Virus record (IMG/VR): IMGVR_UViG_3300046488_000110
Location: 1 to 51,101 of that record
Reading direction: 5' to 3' (one strand)
DNA: 51,101 bases
DNA from: a virus
Shown piece after piece: positions 797 to 48,510 of this stretch (position 1 is the first letter of the stretch; every line of letters starts with the position of its first letter). Both the position numbers and the translations under genes were made by a program. Below the pieces are notes generated by a model. It saw only the letters and a list, made by a program, of their open reading frames with translations. It did not search any database and was not told the origin of the DNA.

Positions 797-1681
797 TTAT
801 ACCCTCACTCCTGCCAATAGATTTCCGATATCCTTGAGAGACGATTCTCCCCACGGGAAAAGGTACACATTCCTCAATCCAGCCTCTTGAAGTTTATTGG
901 TCAATTCAATTCCTCTTTTCTGCCCCGGCTCATCATTATCGTAAGCAATTGTGATTTGCTTGACAGTCGCCTGGCGAAGTTTAAATGTCCATTGCTCAGT
1001 CCAGTAATAAATACTGAATGTGGCTAGCCCGACAGCGTCAATCGACTTTAGATCTGTATTCTCCGATACCATCAATGCGTCAATTGGATTTTCACAAATT
1101 AAGGCGTTGCAACCCAAATAAAGTGCATCCTCGTTGTAGAGCGGAAGCAAATCAAGAGTCCAGCCTCCGGATGCCAGCCATTTCGGACAATCGCATTCGA
1201 TGGCTCGACCACGCAGGCAAACCAACGAGCCGCAGTTCCACACAGGAACAATTAATCGCAAGTGGTGGCACTTGCTGGCGGGTAACACCCCTACCCCTAA
1301 TCGATTCTTTTCGATTGTCTCCTGGCTCAAGGGCTTGTATTTATTCCACAGATCGAATCGCTGCGGGTGCTGTTCGCAACCGCGAACAATCTCTTCGCCG
1401 TGAGTGCGCCAACTGGGAATAGCTGGTTGCTTTCTTGGTTTTATTGGCGTACTACGCAAATCGTCAGGAATTCGATGATCGCGCCTCCAATAATATTCTC
1501 TTGGGTCTTTCCATTTGGCATCTGTACACATCCGGCAAAGCCACCGATTCTGACCGGGCTGGACGTGGAAACGATCATCCCCACCGCAAAATGGACAGGG
1601 GCCAGCCCACTCGCCGCCGCCAGACATAGCAACCTTTTTGAGTTGGGTATCGTGTTGAGCATCCAGGAAAAAGTTAATCAT
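797..1681 (-). CDS. DNA primase (CHC2 zinc finger + TOPRIM)
   Basis: The 294-aa protein carries a CHC2-type zinc ribbon near the N-terminus (C29, C32, C49, C52) and a TOPRIM domain in the second half. The TOPRIM shows the acidic motif ICENPIDAL (catalytic Glu) and IAYDNDEPG (DxD for Mg2+). This is the size and order of phage primases that lack a fused helicase, so it should make RNA primers and work with one of the helicases encoded upstream. The start overlaps the HNH gene stop as ATGA, with a GAGG site about 9 nt ahead. The HNH cassette therefore lies directly upstream of primase in the early operon. Confidence 0.85.
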   Translation of the reverse strand: MINFFLDAQHDTQLKKVAMSGGGEWAGPCPFCGGDDRFHVQPGQNRWLCRMCTDAKWKDPREYYWRRDHRIPDDLRSTPIKPRKQPAIPSWRTHGEEIVRGCEQHPQRFDLWNKYKPLSQETIEKNRLGVGVLPASKCHHLRLIVPVWNCGSLVCLRGRAIECDCPKWLASGGWTLDLLPLYNEDALYLGCNALICENPIDALMVSENTDLKSIDAVGLATFSIYYWTEQWTFKLRQATVKQITIAYDNDEPGQKRGIELTNKLQEAGLRNVYLFPWGESSLKDIGNLLAGVRV

Positions 1682-2379
1682 TTGGCAAATCCTCGTTGCT
1701 TCATGAGATTCTCAAAAAAGGATTGCCAATAAGACCGGTTAAAGTTGGTTTTTATGTGACAAAGATTACAAAGAGTTATGCAGTTTTCCGGAGTGGTGTC
1801 ACCTTTGACGTAGTTGATATGATGAACACTATTTCCAGAATTTCCGCAAGTTGCGCAAGTGTAATTATCTCTATCTCGAATAAGTTGCTTGAAAGCTCGA
1901 TTGAAAGTTTTGGGATAAGGCTCGAAGGAGATGCCCCCCTGCCAGGTTGGACTATTTTCCCCTGTTCTATGGATAGACTGCCATTTTCCATTACATTCGT
2001 AAGAACAGCACTTGGAGCTTTCGAACCGATAAGAGTCTACAAAAAATTGTTTCTCGCAAATTTTACAAACGAGTGCAACTTGTCCCCCGCGCCATAAAAC
2101 ATTATTCTCGCCTTGATAGGCTTTGGACTTCCAGGCATTTGTGCATTGTCGGGAACAAAAACGGGCGCTCTTCGCTTTTCGCTTTTCGACTTCAAACGTA
2201 CGTCCACAGACTTCGCAGATTTTCTCGACTTTGCTCCGGCCTCGCTTACGGATTCCAGCGCACTGGTTTGAGCAATACTTTCCTTGCCCCTTTAGTATTT
2301 GACAAGGTCGTACATAAAAAGGTTTTCCACAAACATCACAAGTTTGATTGGGCCGAAACTTCTCATTGCTCTTTCCCAT
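1678..2379 (-). mobile_element. HNH homing endonuclease with zinc-knuckle repeats
   Basis: I start the ORF at ATG 2379 (MGKSNEKFRPNQTCDVCGKP), 7 nt after the structured leader; the open frame farther upstream only reads through that leader. The 233-aa protein has three Cys-rich repeats (CxxCGKxF..CSxxC type), then two NUMOD-like GENxxxWxGG motifs. The C-terminal HNH nuclease reads CATCGNSGNSVHHINYVKG and then TLCNLCH. Cys-rich DNA-binding modules plus a C-terminal HNH are usual for free-standing homing endonucleases. It would nick or cut a genome lacking the cassette. It is inserted between the 99-aa gene and primase, and its stop overlaps the primase ATG. Confidence 0.88.
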
Positions 2380-2386
2380 AACAAAA

Positions 2387-2532
2387 CGCCCTCCACGTGT
2401 GCTGCCGTTGTCGAGACGAACAGCCGAGGACGTAAGTCCACACATGGAGGGCGCTTTGCGCGCAATATGCGATTGTGCGAAACCGGCAGCACTTGAAAAA
2501 CAAAGCGCCTCGATATTCTGTTCGTCTCGACA
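2387..2532 (-). ncRNA. homing-endonuclease leader RNA, copy 1 (146 nt)
   Basis: The RNA would start 6 nt after a TATAAT and end 7 nt before the HNH ATG. The pairing segments are as follows. a (2532-2518, TGTCGAGACGAACAG) pairs with a' (2423-2409), 15 bp perfect. c (2492-2484, GTGCTGCCG) pairs with c' (2407-2399), 9 bp perfect. d (2453-2440, CGCCCTCCATGTGT) pairs with d' (2400-2387), 14 bp with one G-U. The order is a, c, d, a', c', d', so c and d inside P1 pair with bases just after P1. Two local hairpins lie inside: GGCGCTTTG/CAAAGCGCC and GGAC-TTAC-GTCC. d' contains GGAGGG, the ribosome site of the HNH gene, so the d helix would hide it. Confidence 0.75.
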
Positions 2533-2538
2533 AGAACA

Positions 2539-2547
2539 ATTATACCA
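2539..2547 (-). promoter_or_regulatory. extended -10 promoter of HNH leader copy 1
   Basis: TGGTATAAT on the minus strand is a perfect TGn-TATAAT extended -10. No good -35 is present at the usual distance. The hexamer ends 6 nt before the first base of helix a, so transcription should begin at the helix. It lies 3 bp after the stop of the upstream 99-aa gene. Confidence 0.7.
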
Positions 2548-7786: not shown

Positions 7787-8245
7787 TTAGAAAGGCAGAC
7801 TATCGTCGATAGGTTGGAAAGCCGCCTGATCCACCTGGTAGCCGGCGCTGTCATCGAAGGCAGTCTCCGCCGGGTCTCCGCGCCCGTTGGATTGGACCCC
7901 GATCATAGACATCTTTTCCACGAGCTGGCCCCGGATGGCCCACTCTAGGCCGCGCCGTTCGGCTTCCGAGGCCTGGATTTCAGCATCGAAGGACAATATC
8001 TGTCCCCTGGCCGCAGCTTGCGCCTTGGTCATTTCGATCAGGGCTGGGTCAGCGGCATAGGCCTGTTGGGCAGCGGTTTTACGGGCTCCCTCGTTTTTAC
8101 CGGGCCAATCTTCTGGTGGGGTCATGGCCAGCATGCGAGCCTCTGCGTCCTGGGTAAGCTGCCACTCTTTGAAGCTGGCAGCTGCTTTATCTAGGTAAAG
8201 CTTTCCGAGGTTTAAACTGATTTCGATCATGCGGATTTGGTTCAT
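7787..8245 (-). CDS. helical protein with an SSB-like acidic C-terminal tip
   Basis: The 152-aa protein is mostly alpha-helical (residues 1-110, Ala/Glu/Gln rich, coiled-coil-like) and ends in PIDDSLPF. That tail matches the DDDIPF tip by which bacterial SSB recruits repair proteins, yet no OB fold is visible. The gene overlaps the recombination-type gene upstream as ATGA. It may be a mediator or annealing-protein partner that uses an SSB-like tail. The motif is seen; the role is inferred. Confidence 0.6.
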   Translation of the reverse strand: MNQIRMIEISLNLGKLYLDKAAASFKEWQLTQDAEARMLAMTPPEDWPGKNEGARKTAAQQAYAADPALIEMTKAQAAARGQILSFDAEIQASEAERRGLEWAIRGQLVEKMSMIGVQSNGRGDPAETAFDDSAGYQVDQAAFQPIDDSLPF

Positions 8246-11960: not shown

Positions 11961-11982
11961 AGTGTGGTGTTTATGGTAGAAT
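11953..11982 (+). promoter_or_regulatory. extended -10 promoter of HNH leader copy 2
   Basis: TTGGTA (11953-11958), an 18-bp spacer and TAGAAT (11977-11982) preceded by TGG form an extended -10 promoter. Its hexamer ends 6 nt before helix a of the leader RNA, exactly as in the other three copies. It diverges from the main early promoter and overlaps the operator-like array. Confidence 0.7.
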
Positions 11983-11988
11983 AGGGGA

Positions 11989-12087
11989 GTCACAGGGCAA
12001 GCAGTTTTATTTGCCAACAAAAGCCCGCTACTCTACGAAACTGCTGACCTGTGACAAGCAAGGCAAACGTAGGGCGGCGGGCCTTTG
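11989..12087 (+). ncRNA. homing-endonuclease leader RNA, copy 2 (99 nt)
   Basis: Segments in order: a 11989-12007 (GTCACAGG..AGCAGTTT), c 12010-12015 (TTTGCC), d 12018-12037, a' 12038-12055 (AAACTGCT..CCTGTGAC), linker AAGCAA, c' 12062-12067 (GGCAAA), d' 12068-12087. a/a' gives 8+8 bp around a small internal loop, and c/c' 6 bp. d/d' spans 20 positions with two G-U and two A-C. The ATG at 12100 follows 12 nt after d'. Layout, spacer lengths and the TTTGCC/GGCAAA pair match copy 3. Confidence 0.75.
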
Positions 12088-12099
12088 TTTAGAAAATAA

Positions 12100-12621
12100 A
12101 TGGGTGAGCTATCGAGAGCAGAAAAAATGAGAAAAACACTCGAAGAAAGATTTTGGAGTAAGCTAACAAAAACGGATGGCTGTTGGGAATGGGCGGGGTA
12201 TATTGATGAGGATGGATATGGGATCTTTAAAATAAACGGGAACCCATTAAGAGCGCACCGTATTTCTTATTTGCTCTTGGTTGGCCCTATTCCTCCTGGA
12301 TTATTGGTTTGCCATAAATGCGATAATCGTAAGTGCGTCAATCCAGATCATTTATTTCTGGGAACACATCTTGATAATTCTATCGACTGTATAAAAAAAG
12401 GACGTAGAGCAAAGCATCCCAAGCAACCAGCGCGTCCAAATTGTTGTGGAGAGAAAATACCAAGTCACAAATTAACGAATAATCAAGTCATCGAAATACG
12501 TTCCCTGTTGGAAGTGACACCCGTAAGAAAACTCGCAAGAATGTATCATGTTGCTCCTATAACTATTAGGGACATAAAGTTAAATCGAAGTTGGAAACAC
12601 TTGATTGATTTGTCGTCCTAA
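12100..12621 (+). mobile_element. HNH homing endonuclease (HNH_3 type)
   Basis: The 173-aa protein reads ERFWSKLTKTDGCWEWAGYI, then GYGIFKINGNPLRAHRISY and VCHKCDNRKCVNPDHLFLG: the CWxW..AHR..CxxxxCxNPxHLxLGT pattern of HNH_3 phage endonucleases. A C-terminal helix-turn-helix (KLARMYHVAPITIRDIKL) would bind DNA. I keep ATG 12100 because its distance from the leader RNA equals that of the other copies; ATG 12127 is the alternative. The gene is AT-rich and is followed by an intrinsic terminator, so the unit promoter-leader-gene-terminator is self-contained. Confidence 0.88.
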
Positions 12622-24986: not shown

Positions 24987-25946
24987 GTGGAAAAACAATC
25001 TGGAGTTTATCAAATACTTTGTAAGGTTACTGGAGATAGATATATTGGATCGTCTGGAAATATACAAGCAAGAATAAGAGAGCATATATATGATCTCAGG
25101 CACTCAATTCACATTAATTATATGCTCATGGCAACTTGGGTAAGAAATGGAGAAGAGTCATTTGAGTTTTCAGTTTTGGAAATCGTCAGTGATACCTCTT
25201 TATTGTTTGAAAGAGAACAATATTGGCTTGATCTGCTTAAACCAGAACTAAATATCGCTACTAGTGCAGATAGGTCAGCATATGGTCTAAAGAGGTCTCA
25301 GGAAACGAAAGACAAAATCAGTATTGCTGCTGTAAGGCGACATGCGAATATGTCTGAAAGTAAAAAGAAATATGTAATTGAAAACATCAAGAAGGGACGC
25401 CAGGAATGGTGGAATTCTCTCACTGAAGCCGAACAACAGGAACATATTCGCAGGATTAGCAATCCGCATTCTGAAGAAACAAAGAAGGTTCTTGCTGAAA
25501 AAAGTAAAAACAACAATGCACATTATTGGTTAGGGAAAAAAAGGTCTGATGAAACTATAGCCAAGATGAGAGCCAAAAAACAGGCAGAATGGGATCAGAC
25601 CAAAGCAGAACGTGAGGAAGAAAAATTGCGCAAGCGTGCTGAACTTGAGATAGAAATAGAACAAAGAAAAATAAATAAAGCCGAAAGGATGAGGCGTGTT
25701 CGACTTGGAAAAAAGGCATCAGAAGAAACACGCGCAAAATTACGAGAGGTTGCCCTATCTCAACAACAAGACCCTGAATATAAAAGAAAACACCATGCGG
25801 GGGTGGTAGCTGCAATGAAAGACCCCGAGGTTCTAAAACGCCTAAGCGAATCACACAAAGGCAAAAAGATGTCAGAAGAAGTAAGGGAAAACATGAGTAA
25901 GGCTCAAAAGGAACGCAGGAAACGAGAGAATGAAACTTCTTCCTGA
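24987..25946 (+). mobile_element. GIY-YIG homing endonuclease with NUMOD3 repeats
   Basis: The 319-aa protein starts SGVYQILCKVTGDRYIGSSG (GVY..YIG pair), followed by the conserved R in IQARIREH and E in FEREQYW, the GIY-YIG nuclease core. Downstream are several NUMOD3 DNA-binding repeats (GLKRSQETKDKI, GKKRSDETIAKM, GKKASEETRAKL, GKKMSEEVRENM) separated by Lys/Glu-rich helices. It starts at GTG behind the regulated GGGAG. It is AT-rich compared with the capsid gene it follows, so recently acquired. Confidence 0.92.
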
Positions 25947-45977: not shown

Positions 45978-46067
45978 TTACTTGTAAACCTCCCGGTGAG
46001 CTGCCTTTAGATCATCGGGAAATATTTTTGCATAGATACGGGTAGACGCTGGATCATGAGCGGCTAT
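45978..46067 (-). pseudogene. possible C-terminal remnant of a tyrosine integrase
   Basis: An open frame without a start codon reads AAHDPASTRIYAKIFPDDLK and then AAHREVYK, TAA. This resembles the end of tyrosine recombinases, where GHxDPxTTxxYAHxxPexL carries the catalytic Tyr (here Y in RIYAK). It is preceded by a stop and overlaps the end of the GIY-YIG gene. Only 29 residues remain, so the match is suggestive. No other integrase sequence is present in the genome. Confidence 0.35.
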
Positions 46068-46443
46068 TTAGTGGGGGGTCGATTTTCCTAATCATGAGAT
46101 TTTCACAACGCCGAATATCAACACGATCTAGGCAAAATCCCATACTTGCAAACTCGTCTTTTAGTATAATTCTACAATCATCAAGAGTATACAATTCGAT
46201 AATCCAATCCAAAGATGCAGGCAAGTTTTCTATAACTTCTCTACCAGCTGGACTATTCCCGAAATGCTTACCCTCATAATTCGTGCCTATATGGGAACTC
46301 CAGTTGTCAAACCATCTGTTCCAGACGCCTCTCTTTGATATGCCAATATAAAGAATATTTTCAGCATTCTTGAGTACATAGAGTTCGGCATCAATATCGT
46401 CGAATTTCCCAGACATGAAATCTTTGAATTTTAGGGTAATCAT
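46054..46443 (-). mobile_element. compact GIY-YIG endonuclease
   Basis: The 129-aa protein has ELYVLKNAENILYIGISKRG (LYV..YIG), WNRWFDNW and a conserved late E (ILKDEFASMG), the minimal GIY-YIG fold without NUMOD repeats. The start at ATG 46443 has AAGGAT ahead and lies 11 nt below the structured leader (copy 3). The gene is AT-rich. It resembles stand-alone GIY-YIG proteins of phages; homing is inferred from its shared leader with the other endonuclease genes. Confidence 0.78.
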
Positions 46444-46454
46444 ATAATCCTTAA

Positions 46455-46560
46455 CCAGAAAGCCGCTATCTACGTTTTGCCAATTCTTGCTGAGGGAATC
46501 GGGTCTACCGTAAATAGCGGCTCTCTGGTGGCAAATAAAAAGACCCTTGATTCCCTCAGC
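46455..46560 (-). ncRNA. homing-endonuclease leader RNA, copy 3 (106 nt)
   Basis: Helix a starts at 46560 (GCTGAGGGAATC-AA-GGGTCT) and pairs with AGACCC-GATTCCCTCAGC: 18 bp with a 2-nt bulge. c TTTGCC pairs with c' GGCAAA. d (CCAGAGAGCCGCTATTTACG) pairs with the last 20 nt (CGTAGATAGCGGCTTTCTGG), 20 bp including two G-U. The order is a-c-d-a'-c'-d', with linkers TTTTTA before c and AAGAATT after a'. The start codon of the GIY-YIG gene follows after TTAAGGATTAT. Confidence 0.8.
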
Positions 46561-46566
46561 ACCTGT

Positions 46567-46575
46567 ATTATACCA
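46567..46575 (-). promoter_or_regulatory. extended -10 promoter of leader copy 3
   Basis: TGGTATAAT on the minus strand, inside the 11-nt run GTGTGGTATAAT-like shared with copy 1 (TGTGGTATAAT). The hexamer ends 6 nt before helix a. A -35 is poor (TGGAAC at 16 nt), as expected for an extended -10 promoter. Confidence 0.75.
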
Positions 46576-47624: not shown

Positions 47625-48377
47625 TTACTGTACGCCAGAATAGAAGTTGTCAACCTGATAATCCGTTAGAGACCTGATCCAATCAATCTGATCCTGAGAC
47701 AGATTGAACCATTCGTATTTCACGCGCTCTTTAGAGAATTTCTCGTGCATATAAAGTTCTGCCTTTATATAGTTCGCACTAGCAAAGTGATGGACTAGTT
47801 CAGTCTTATACGGGATGTCTCTATTCAACATTGTTAGGCGGTTTTGGACATTCCGAGCGCGACCTATTTTGTATAGGCCGTTTTCTGCAATCATCAAATA
47901 TACAAATCCGGGCCGCTTTTCTCCTACGATGGATTTGCTGTCATATCCACATTTTAGTCTCTCTTGTTCCAACCGTTTGGTATCTTTTCTATTTTCTTCT
48001 CTGGCCAGTCTGTCTTTATTAGCCCGTTCTAGCTCTGCCTCTATTATCGGGTTTATTGGCTTTTCTTCTTCTTCGATTTCTTCTTCGGTATCAACCTCGT
48101 TCAACTTGCCATCAATATACTCTTCAATTTCTTCGGTATCTGGTGCGCTAAATTCGTGTTCGCAAAACGGGCAGACAAGTTCATCCATTAAATCAACAAA
48201 ATAAGGATAATAGGATTGGCAATTATCGCACCGGAGAACTTTTCCACCCATGTATTCAAATTCTTCTAAGAGATAATCCTCGAGGGCAGCCATCTTTTCT
48301 AGTCCATCGTTGAAGTTTCCTATACCTCTTACAAGTTCGGCTTCGGTGTAAACTGTGTAATAGCTTTTATCTTCCAT
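47625..48377 (-). mobile_element. T5orf172/GIY-YIG-superfamily endonuclease
   Basis: I start at ATG 48377, which has TTGAGG ahead and lies 11 nt below leader copy 4; the longer frame reads through the leader and its promoter. The 250-aa protein has an N-terminal zinc ribbon (RCDNCQSYYPYF..CPFCEHEF), an acidic coiled linker, and a C-terminal T5orf172 domain (GFVYLMIAENGLYKIGRARN, LVHHFASANYIKAELYMHEK, YEWFNLS). This is a GIY-YIG relative often acting as phage-borne homing or DNA-binding enzyme. Confidence 0.85.
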
Positions 48378-48388
48378 ATTTTCCTCAA

Positions 48389-48497
48389 CCAAAAAACCGT
48401 CATCCTGCGCCTTTCCGATTCCTTGCTGAGGGGAAGCGATATAACGCAAAATGACGGTTCTTTGTTCGGAAAATAAAATACCGCTTTCACCCTCAGC
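48389..48497 (-). ncRNA. homing-endonuclease leader RNA, copy 4 (109 nt)
   Basis: Helix a begins at 48497 with GCTGAGGG, as in copy 3, and pairs with ATATCGCTTCCCCTCAGC. c TTTCCGA pairs with c' TCGGAAA (7 bp), where copies 2 and 3 have TTTGCC/GGCAAA: a compensatory change. d (CAAAGAACCGTCATTTTGCG) pairs with CGCAGGATGACGGTTTTTTG, 20 bp with three G-U or U-G. Spacers match copy 3 within 1-2 nt. The T5orf172 ATG follows after TTGAGGAAAAT. Confidence 0.8.
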
Positions 48498-48503
48498 ATC
48501 CCA

Positions 48504-48510
48504 ATTATAC
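48504..48510 (-). promoter_or_regulatory. promoter of leader copy 4
   Basis: GTATAAT preceded by GGG; the TATAAT ends 6 nt before helix a. The TAA inside it is also the stop codon of the upstream membrane-protein gene. A weak TTGGGA lies 18 bp upstream as a possible -35. Confidence 0.65.

Follow-up and report, generated by a model that had tools for sequence, protein, structure and literature searches.

Analysis of a 51,101-base virus record (the window, meaning the whole stretch of DNA that was analysed) revealed four copies of a promoter fused to a structured leader RNA. Together with homologues from other viruses, these leaders form a phage RNA family that is near certain to be real and strongly conserved, with strong covariation, and that is apparently undescribed. 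The leader is a sharply bounded module that recombines; it extends from -15/-20 to the end of strand d' and is found in near-identical form before unrelated genes. The window itself is composed of a minus-strand replication module (primase, helicase), a plus-strand late module (terminase, tail) and a minus-strand methyltransferase/nuclease region. A megablast search with its right half for a close named relative gave no match among 50,697 phage records. A named phage as the source of the window was rejected because the terminase is only about 28% identical to actinophage terminases.

The four leaders follow one design (copy 1, 2381-2544, minus strand; copy 2, 11977-12089, plus strand; copy 3, 46455-46572, minus strand; copy 4, 48388-48509, minus strand). 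Reading of the leaders and listing of all helices revealed a common order of an extended -10 hexamer, about 6 nt, strands a-b-c-d-b'-a'-c'-d' and a start codon, with a U-rich linker between b and c and an AAGAA-like linker between a' and c' (Table 1). Helix b is an inward extension of a within the loop and is new relative to the initial annotation; helix d comprises 20 to 22 bp. The whole unit spans about 120 bases and the leader RNA about 105 nt.

Table 1. Parts of the four leaders and their downstream genes (window positions).
Copy	Part	Position	Strand	Remarks
1	-10 hexamer	2539-2544	-	TATAAT
1	strand a	2518-2533	-	a' at 2423-2408
1	decoy	2500-2509	-	GGCGCUUUGU; can pair with 2459-2450 of d
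1	strand c	2484-2492	-	c' at 2407-2399, 3 nt shared with d'
1	strand d	2439-2459	-	
1	strand d'	2381-2401	-	Shine-Dalgarno GGAGGG within
1	downstream gene	1678-2379	-	HNH endonuclease
2	-10 hexamer	11977-11982	+	TAGAAT
2	strand a	11989-11996	+	a' at 12048-12055
2	strand b	12000-12008	+	b' at 12037-12045
2	strand c	12010-12015	+	c' at 12062-12067
2	strand d	12017-12037	+	
2	strand d'	12068-12089	+	with U-tract
2	downstream gene	12100-12621	+	HNH_3 endonuclease
3	-10 hexamer	46567-46572	-	TATAAT, extended, preceded by TGG; 6 nt ahead of a
3	strand a	46549-46560	-	predicted +1 at 46560
3	strand b	46541-46546	-	pairs with 46506-46501
3	strand c	46529-46535	-	TTTGCCA, past U-rich linker
3	strand d	46509-46528	-	20 nt
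3	strand b'	46501-46506	-	
3	strand a'	46489-46500	-	followed by AAGAA linker
3	strand c'	46476-46482	-	
3	strand d'	46455-46474	-	U-rich at its end
3	downstream gene	46054-46443	-	129 aa, GIY-YIG-like by motif only
4	-10 hexamer	48504-48509	-	TATAAT, overlapping end of upstream gene
4	strand a	48490-48497	-	
4	strand b	48478-48486	-	pairs with 48442-48434
4	strand c	48466-48472	-	pairs with 48418-48412
4	strand d	48445-48465	-	
4	strand a'	48425-48432	-	
4	strand c'	48412-48418	-	
4	strand d'	48389-48409	-	U-tract GGTTTTTTGG
4	downstream gene	47625-48377	-	MUG113/T5orf172 nuclease

A descriptor of the order a, c, d, a', c', d' scored 90 to 100 for copies 1, 3 and 4 and 77 for copy 2, compared with a best score of 71 for six dinucleotide shuffles of the whole window. 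A first descriptor, built without a promoter constraint, was noisy in GC-rich contigs. A covariance model (R2) for which 17 leaders from other viruses served as training set, with all window sequences held out, recovered copy 3 (E 5.7e-16), copy 2 (5.3e-12), copy 4 (9.7e-12) and copy 1 (8e-4). The helix listing, the descriptor scores and the held-out model agree on the four leaders, with the positions and strand order given in the initial annotation. That annotation had also placed strand a exactly 6 nt past every -10 hexamer, which was the case in copies 2 to 4; in copy 1, helix a starts 5 nt past the hexamer if it is taken to include its two terminal U-A pairs. Copy 1 is a divergent, distant and longer family member, in which the Shine-Dalgarno sequence lies inside d', c' and d' have bases in common, and an extra upstream decoy can pair with half of d. 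With respect to the downstream genes, the two HNH endonucleases and the T5orf172 nuclease were confirmed, while the GIY-YIG assignment of copy 3 is based only on a motif seen by eye, and no GIY-YIG was recognised in its 129-aa product by Pfam or PHROGs.

IMG/VR was scanned first with the pattern TATAAT-N6-GCTGAGGG and then with a paired a/a' pattern. The true members recovered by the pattern scan had b, c and d sequences that were new, and two further a types followed. A covariance model then added members whose a helices were also new and carried compensating changes (ATCTAGGG, GTCTAAGG, GTCACACG and GTCAGAG). About 40 homologues were obtained, all from uncultivated virus contigs. Helix a occurs in a few discrete sequences, namely GCTGAGGG, GTCACAG and GTCTAGGG, and more rarely GTCAGAG, GTCACACG, GTCTAAGG and GTCGAGAC. 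A search pattern on the U-linker and c in place of a returned 3 true members among 93 matches and zero new a types, and a search via the T5orf172 protein gave only 32% partial matches. The AAG 3' of a' belonged to the search patterns; its conservation is therefore not independent evidence. Loci picked by a/a' with a -10 match of at least 5/6 contained the d-d' helix in 32 of 40 cases, compared with 0.1% for shuffled downstream DNA; for loci picked in the same way with a -10 match of at most 3/6, the helix was present in 6 of 178. This test is non-circular, since the d-d' helix played no part in choosing the loci. The spacing from the -10 hexamer to a was 6 nt in 27 of the 32 loci with d-d'.

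A search of the genomes of 84,980 prokaryote species with the GCTGAGGG pattern gave 38 matches, not one of which was a leader, so prophage carriage was not seen. In GenBank phages (50,697 named) and PLSDB plasmids, the queries tried gave no credible blastn match, one 24-nt hit having an E value of 0.3. The family is thus known here only from uncultivated phages.

Covariation was determined in 34 non-redundant leaders, with partners permuted between leaders as a control. Pairing in d was 98%, compared with 48% with permuted partners (z 17.6), and z values of 10.5 for b and 8.0 for the extension of a were obtained; the figures for d and the selected helices are flattered by selection. Less affected are the a/a' pattern test described above, the test of c, for which no helix was preselected (z 9.8; 0 of 5,000 permutations reached the observed sum), and a plain MAFFT alignment analysed with RNAalifold, which revealed double changes in 16 of 18 predicted pairs. 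Counting a and d in the plain MAFFT alignment gave changes on both sides in 20 of 25 pairs (0/500 shuffles; sliding controls far lower), a count that includes helix a, which had been part of the search pattern. The covariation that had been predicted for a, c and d was borne out: across the permutation and alignment tests taken together, it is strong in these three helices and in b.

The leaders have an extended -10 promoter, with TGn in most of the 34 and no consistent -35 element, which suits a unit that has to work wherever it lands. On the basis of the promoter spacing, transcription is predicted to start at the first base of helix a. The upstream genes are mostly co-directional and end 7 to 50 nt ahead of this predicted start. 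The TATAAT of the leader contains the stop codon of the preceding gene in copy 4 and in the homologues L294, L396 and L414. Leaders located before unrelated genes were aligned with 400 to 500 nt of flanking sequence, and the alignments mostly began between -20 and 0 and stopped no more than about 8 nt from where d' ends. L347, which precedes a GIY-YIG gene, and L363, which precedes other downstream sequence, are 93 to 95% identical over the leader and share little else. L423 and L427 have leaders that are 98% identical, homologous diverged upstream flanks (75%) and different downstream genes. In this pair the gene is swapped at the leader border, the downstream genes differing from the 3' end of the leader onward. 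The replication-like genes of L367 and L592 (G026) are nearly identical in their C-terminal halves and differ in their N-terminal halves and leaders, which suggests recombination within the gene too.

Homologues were found upstream of other endonuclease genes, as had been expected, and the nucleases belong to several families: several HNH kinds, AP2-HNH, GIY-YIG with NUMOD3, T5orf172-like, DUF559/MTES_1575 and TnpB. Mobile nucleases stand behind about 22 of 36 classifiable leaders (roughly 60%), with the genes of L314, L359, copy 3, L593, L594 and L597 assigned by motifs seen by eye or by similarity. The leader also precedes genes for N6_N4 methyltransferases (L121 and L441, with a ParB-like N-terminus seen by eye), MT-A70 (L276; L346 and L600 by similarity), a VapE-like protein (L131) and replication- or HTH-like proteins (L277, L354, L367 and L592), whereas the products of L127, L598, L416, L591 and L596 are of unknown kind. 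Because these other genes carry homologues too, a leader restricted to homing endonucleases was rejected, and the initial claim that it marks such genes had to be abandoned; the association with endonucleases is frequent, not exclusive. The wider claim, that a promoter with a structured RNA leader recurs irrespective of protein family, is supported. The TnpB of L396 (OrfB_IS605 and a Cas12f1-like TNB domain) is encoded around position 7840 on the plus strand of a virus contig, with the leader in front of the gene. The RNA-guided nuclease may therefore be expressed from a borrowed phage leader.

The median energies of P1 (a+b), c and d are -26, -8 and -30 kcal/mol, and all three helices cross each other. 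P1 and d form an H-type pseudoknot with a long U-rich L1 and an A-rich L3, and P1 and c form another pseudoknot. The median gap is 0 nt both between c and d and between c' and d'. Since c abuts d, c' abuts d', and a c helix of 7 bp is too short to reach across the whole 20-bp d helix, P1+c would be an alternative to full P1+d; by this geometric reasoning, c-c' and full d-d' are probably mutually exclusive. A second class (L120, L021/L294, L423 and L427) carries the Shine-Dalgarno sequence within d'. In its members c precedes d by about 20 nt in the 5' half, which makes the steric argument weaker for them. This class has an internal promoter (TTGATA or TTGACG, 17 to 18 nt, TATAGT) with the start placed at the first bases of d. 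Such a complete sigma-70-type promoter inside L120, L021/L294, L423 and L427 would yield, for each gene, two transcripts that overlap.

GC content is high in the d hairpin, whose 5' end is A-rich and whose 3' end is U-rich. U occupies at least 5 of the 8 positions past the GC part of d' in 71% of the leaders, compared with 13.5% of matched control stretches ahead of other genes. The succession of a GC-rich hairpin and a U-tract, as in intrinsic attenuators, indicates that d-d' is a probable intrinsic terminator; its loop of about 35 nt is unusually long for one, and the U-tracts are often interrupted by G or paired with the A-rich start of d. The covarying c-c' helix is a candidate for the alternative structure of an attenuator, its incompatibility with d-d' being suggested by geometry and, in copy 1, by base overlap. 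The Shine-Dalgarno sequence lies in a helix in copy 1, L120, L294, L414, L423 and L427, and not in copies 2 and 3 or in most other leaders. The initial annotation had overlooked the probable exclusion between c-c' and complete d-d', the terminator-like or Shine-Dalgarno-burying character of d-d', the second promoter at d in some homologues and the sharply bounded, recombining nature of the module.

The probable mutual exclusion of c-c' and full d-d', together with a d-d' helix that is terminator-like or buries the Shine-Dalgarno sequence, favours a two-state, default-low attenuator on mobile cargo, a reading to which we give slightly less than even odds. The extended -10 promoter would be fused to the leader RNA, beginning at the first base of helix a, and P1 would form first, with c and d held in its loop. 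As transcription proceeds, c' would pair with c to give the P1+c pseudoknot, and later d' would pair with d to give the P1+d pseudoknot. The d-d' helix would serve as the expression platform, probably as an intrinsic terminator in most members and by burial of the Shine-Dalgarno sequence in others. Because these two forms occupy the same position behind the same fold, as is the pattern of expression platforms, d-d' would be the OFF state and P1+c, formed earlier in transcription, a competing ON or delaying state. Because d far exceeds c in thermodynamic stability, the switch would be of consequence only if some further factor tipped the balance towards c. Candidate inputs are the transcription speed, a ribosome finishing the upstream gene, and a protein reading helix a; no sensor or ligand for the leader was evident. 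The promoter-leader unit would move between genes as one piece and would provide single mobile cargo genes (for nucleases, methyltransferases or replication) with throttled expression of their own at any landing site. A broader proposal, a mobile promoter-attenuator module that spreads independently of its cargo and uses three crossing helices (ABCABC) as a co-transcriptional switch or a true RNA knot, is put forward more tentatively, as something that may well not hold. The leader would offer a rare natural example of three mutually crossing helices, on which switching by co-transcriptional folding can be tested, as well as a small, portable part that combines promoter and attenuator. It is also relevant to the question of how TnpB and free-standing homing endonucleases, once landed in unrelated operons, are expressed without harm to the phage.

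It is rather unlikely that the leader is instead a static 5' armour or insulator that locks the 5' end in P1 at +1 without switching. In such a structure, the P1+d pseudoknot, with its U-rich loop over d and A-rich loop over P1, would block 5'-dependent decay and separate the gene from the operon. The position of helix a at the predicted +1 in all members, the high stability of P1 and d, and the location of the leaders just behind co-directional genes, with a stop codon often 7 to 50 nt upstream, are consistent with this role, and the U5-N-U3 and AAGAA linkers may be suited to the triplex and A-minor interactions found in H-type pseudoknots. However, a static element does not account for why c-c' is conserved despite its conflict with d, why a U-tract is present, or why one class has the Shine-Dalgarno sequence in d' and a second promoter at d. 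By analogy with the put RNA of phage HK022, the nascent leader might bind the elongating RNA polymerase and suppress downstream pausing or termination; the extreme 5' position on phage-promoter transcripts, the compact cis-acting fold and the replication-like genes among the carriers point in this direction. This is improbable, since many carriers are single mobile genes of a few hundred bases with little to antiterminate, no Rfam family matched, and d' is itself terminator-like. There is likewise only a small chance that a trans-acting protein of the phage or the host binds the leader and recognises it by helix a: this helix is more conserved than pairing needs and is confined to few discrete sequences, but different a types occur in one genome and before unrelated genes, and no common partner gene was identified. 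A DNA-level feature without RNA function (mobile element ends or a recombination hot spot) could account for near-identical leaders before different genes, as in L347/L363 and L423/L427, but is very improbable, because the constant promoter spacing, the start codon behind d', the G-U pairs and the compensatory changes in all helices indicate RNA and the strand order is unlike that of terminal inverted repeats.

The leader, with the two-state attenuator as its favoured reading, was compared with known systems. In T4-type homing endonuclease genes (T4 I-TevI, Aeh1 mobE, T4 segB), hairpins at the ribosome-binding site limit expression; the hairpin forms on long read-through transcripts, and the late promoter of I-TevI omits one arm (PMC3014915). 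The leader is likewise a phage leader RNA with a proposed limit on endonuclease expression, and the second class and copy 1 have the Shine-Dalgarno sequence in a helix. Unlike the T4-type hairpins, it has a promoter before the whole structure, three crossing helices, a mostly free Shine-Dalgarno sequence and non-nuclease cargo as well. A promoter dropping one helix arm was not found among the leaders: the outer promoter precedes all strands, and a transcript from the internal promoter (L120, L294, L423 and L427) would still contain the two d strands. The put RNA of HK022 is cis-acting on phage early-gene transcripts. It acts on the polymerase (PMC9378689). Both are cis-acting structured phage RNAs, comparable only in their 5'-end position, whereas the leader has crossing helices and a terminator-like 3' helix and sits before single mobile genes. 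The leader resembles the T4-type hairpins and put RNA in place or proposed effect and lacks the defining architecture of the T4 type.

In pseudoknot riboswitches such as preQ1-I, a pseudoknot competes with a terminator or a Shine-Dalgarno-sequestering hairpin, and both platforms occur in one family. A similar competition is proposed for the leader family, which also includes both platform types; in contrast to riboswitches, no ligand core was recognised, the helix sequences drift freely, the cargo is non-metabolic and the promoter belongs to the moving unit. The HEARO/omega RNA of IscB and the reRNA of TnpB are RNA structures adjoining mobile nuclease genes, as is the leader in many cases, but the leader had no Rfam hit and no recognised guide, and its cargo has no shared family and includes one TnpB among many genes. 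Phage morons consist of a single cargo gene with its own promoter and a nearby terminator-like signal. The leader and its single cargo gene share this arrangement, and differ from morons in that the leader is a conserved RNA family moving separately from the cargo.

No description of this RNA was found in the open-access literature. At the gathering threshold, no Rfam 15 family matched the leaders of the window or any of 15 homologue loci, and copy 3 matched only miRNA models at E values up to 1, far under their thresholds. A known Rfam class, a group I intron and HEARO were accordingly rejected, and the initial view that the leader belongs to no described Rfam family (HEARO, group I introns and riboswitches included) is in line with this result. 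The sole Rfam hit of the window was an int-alpA RNA (RF02996; 25971-26035, plus strand), just above threshold, which follows immediately after the gene of a GIY-YIG homing endonuclease (24987-25946), a gene without the studied leader.
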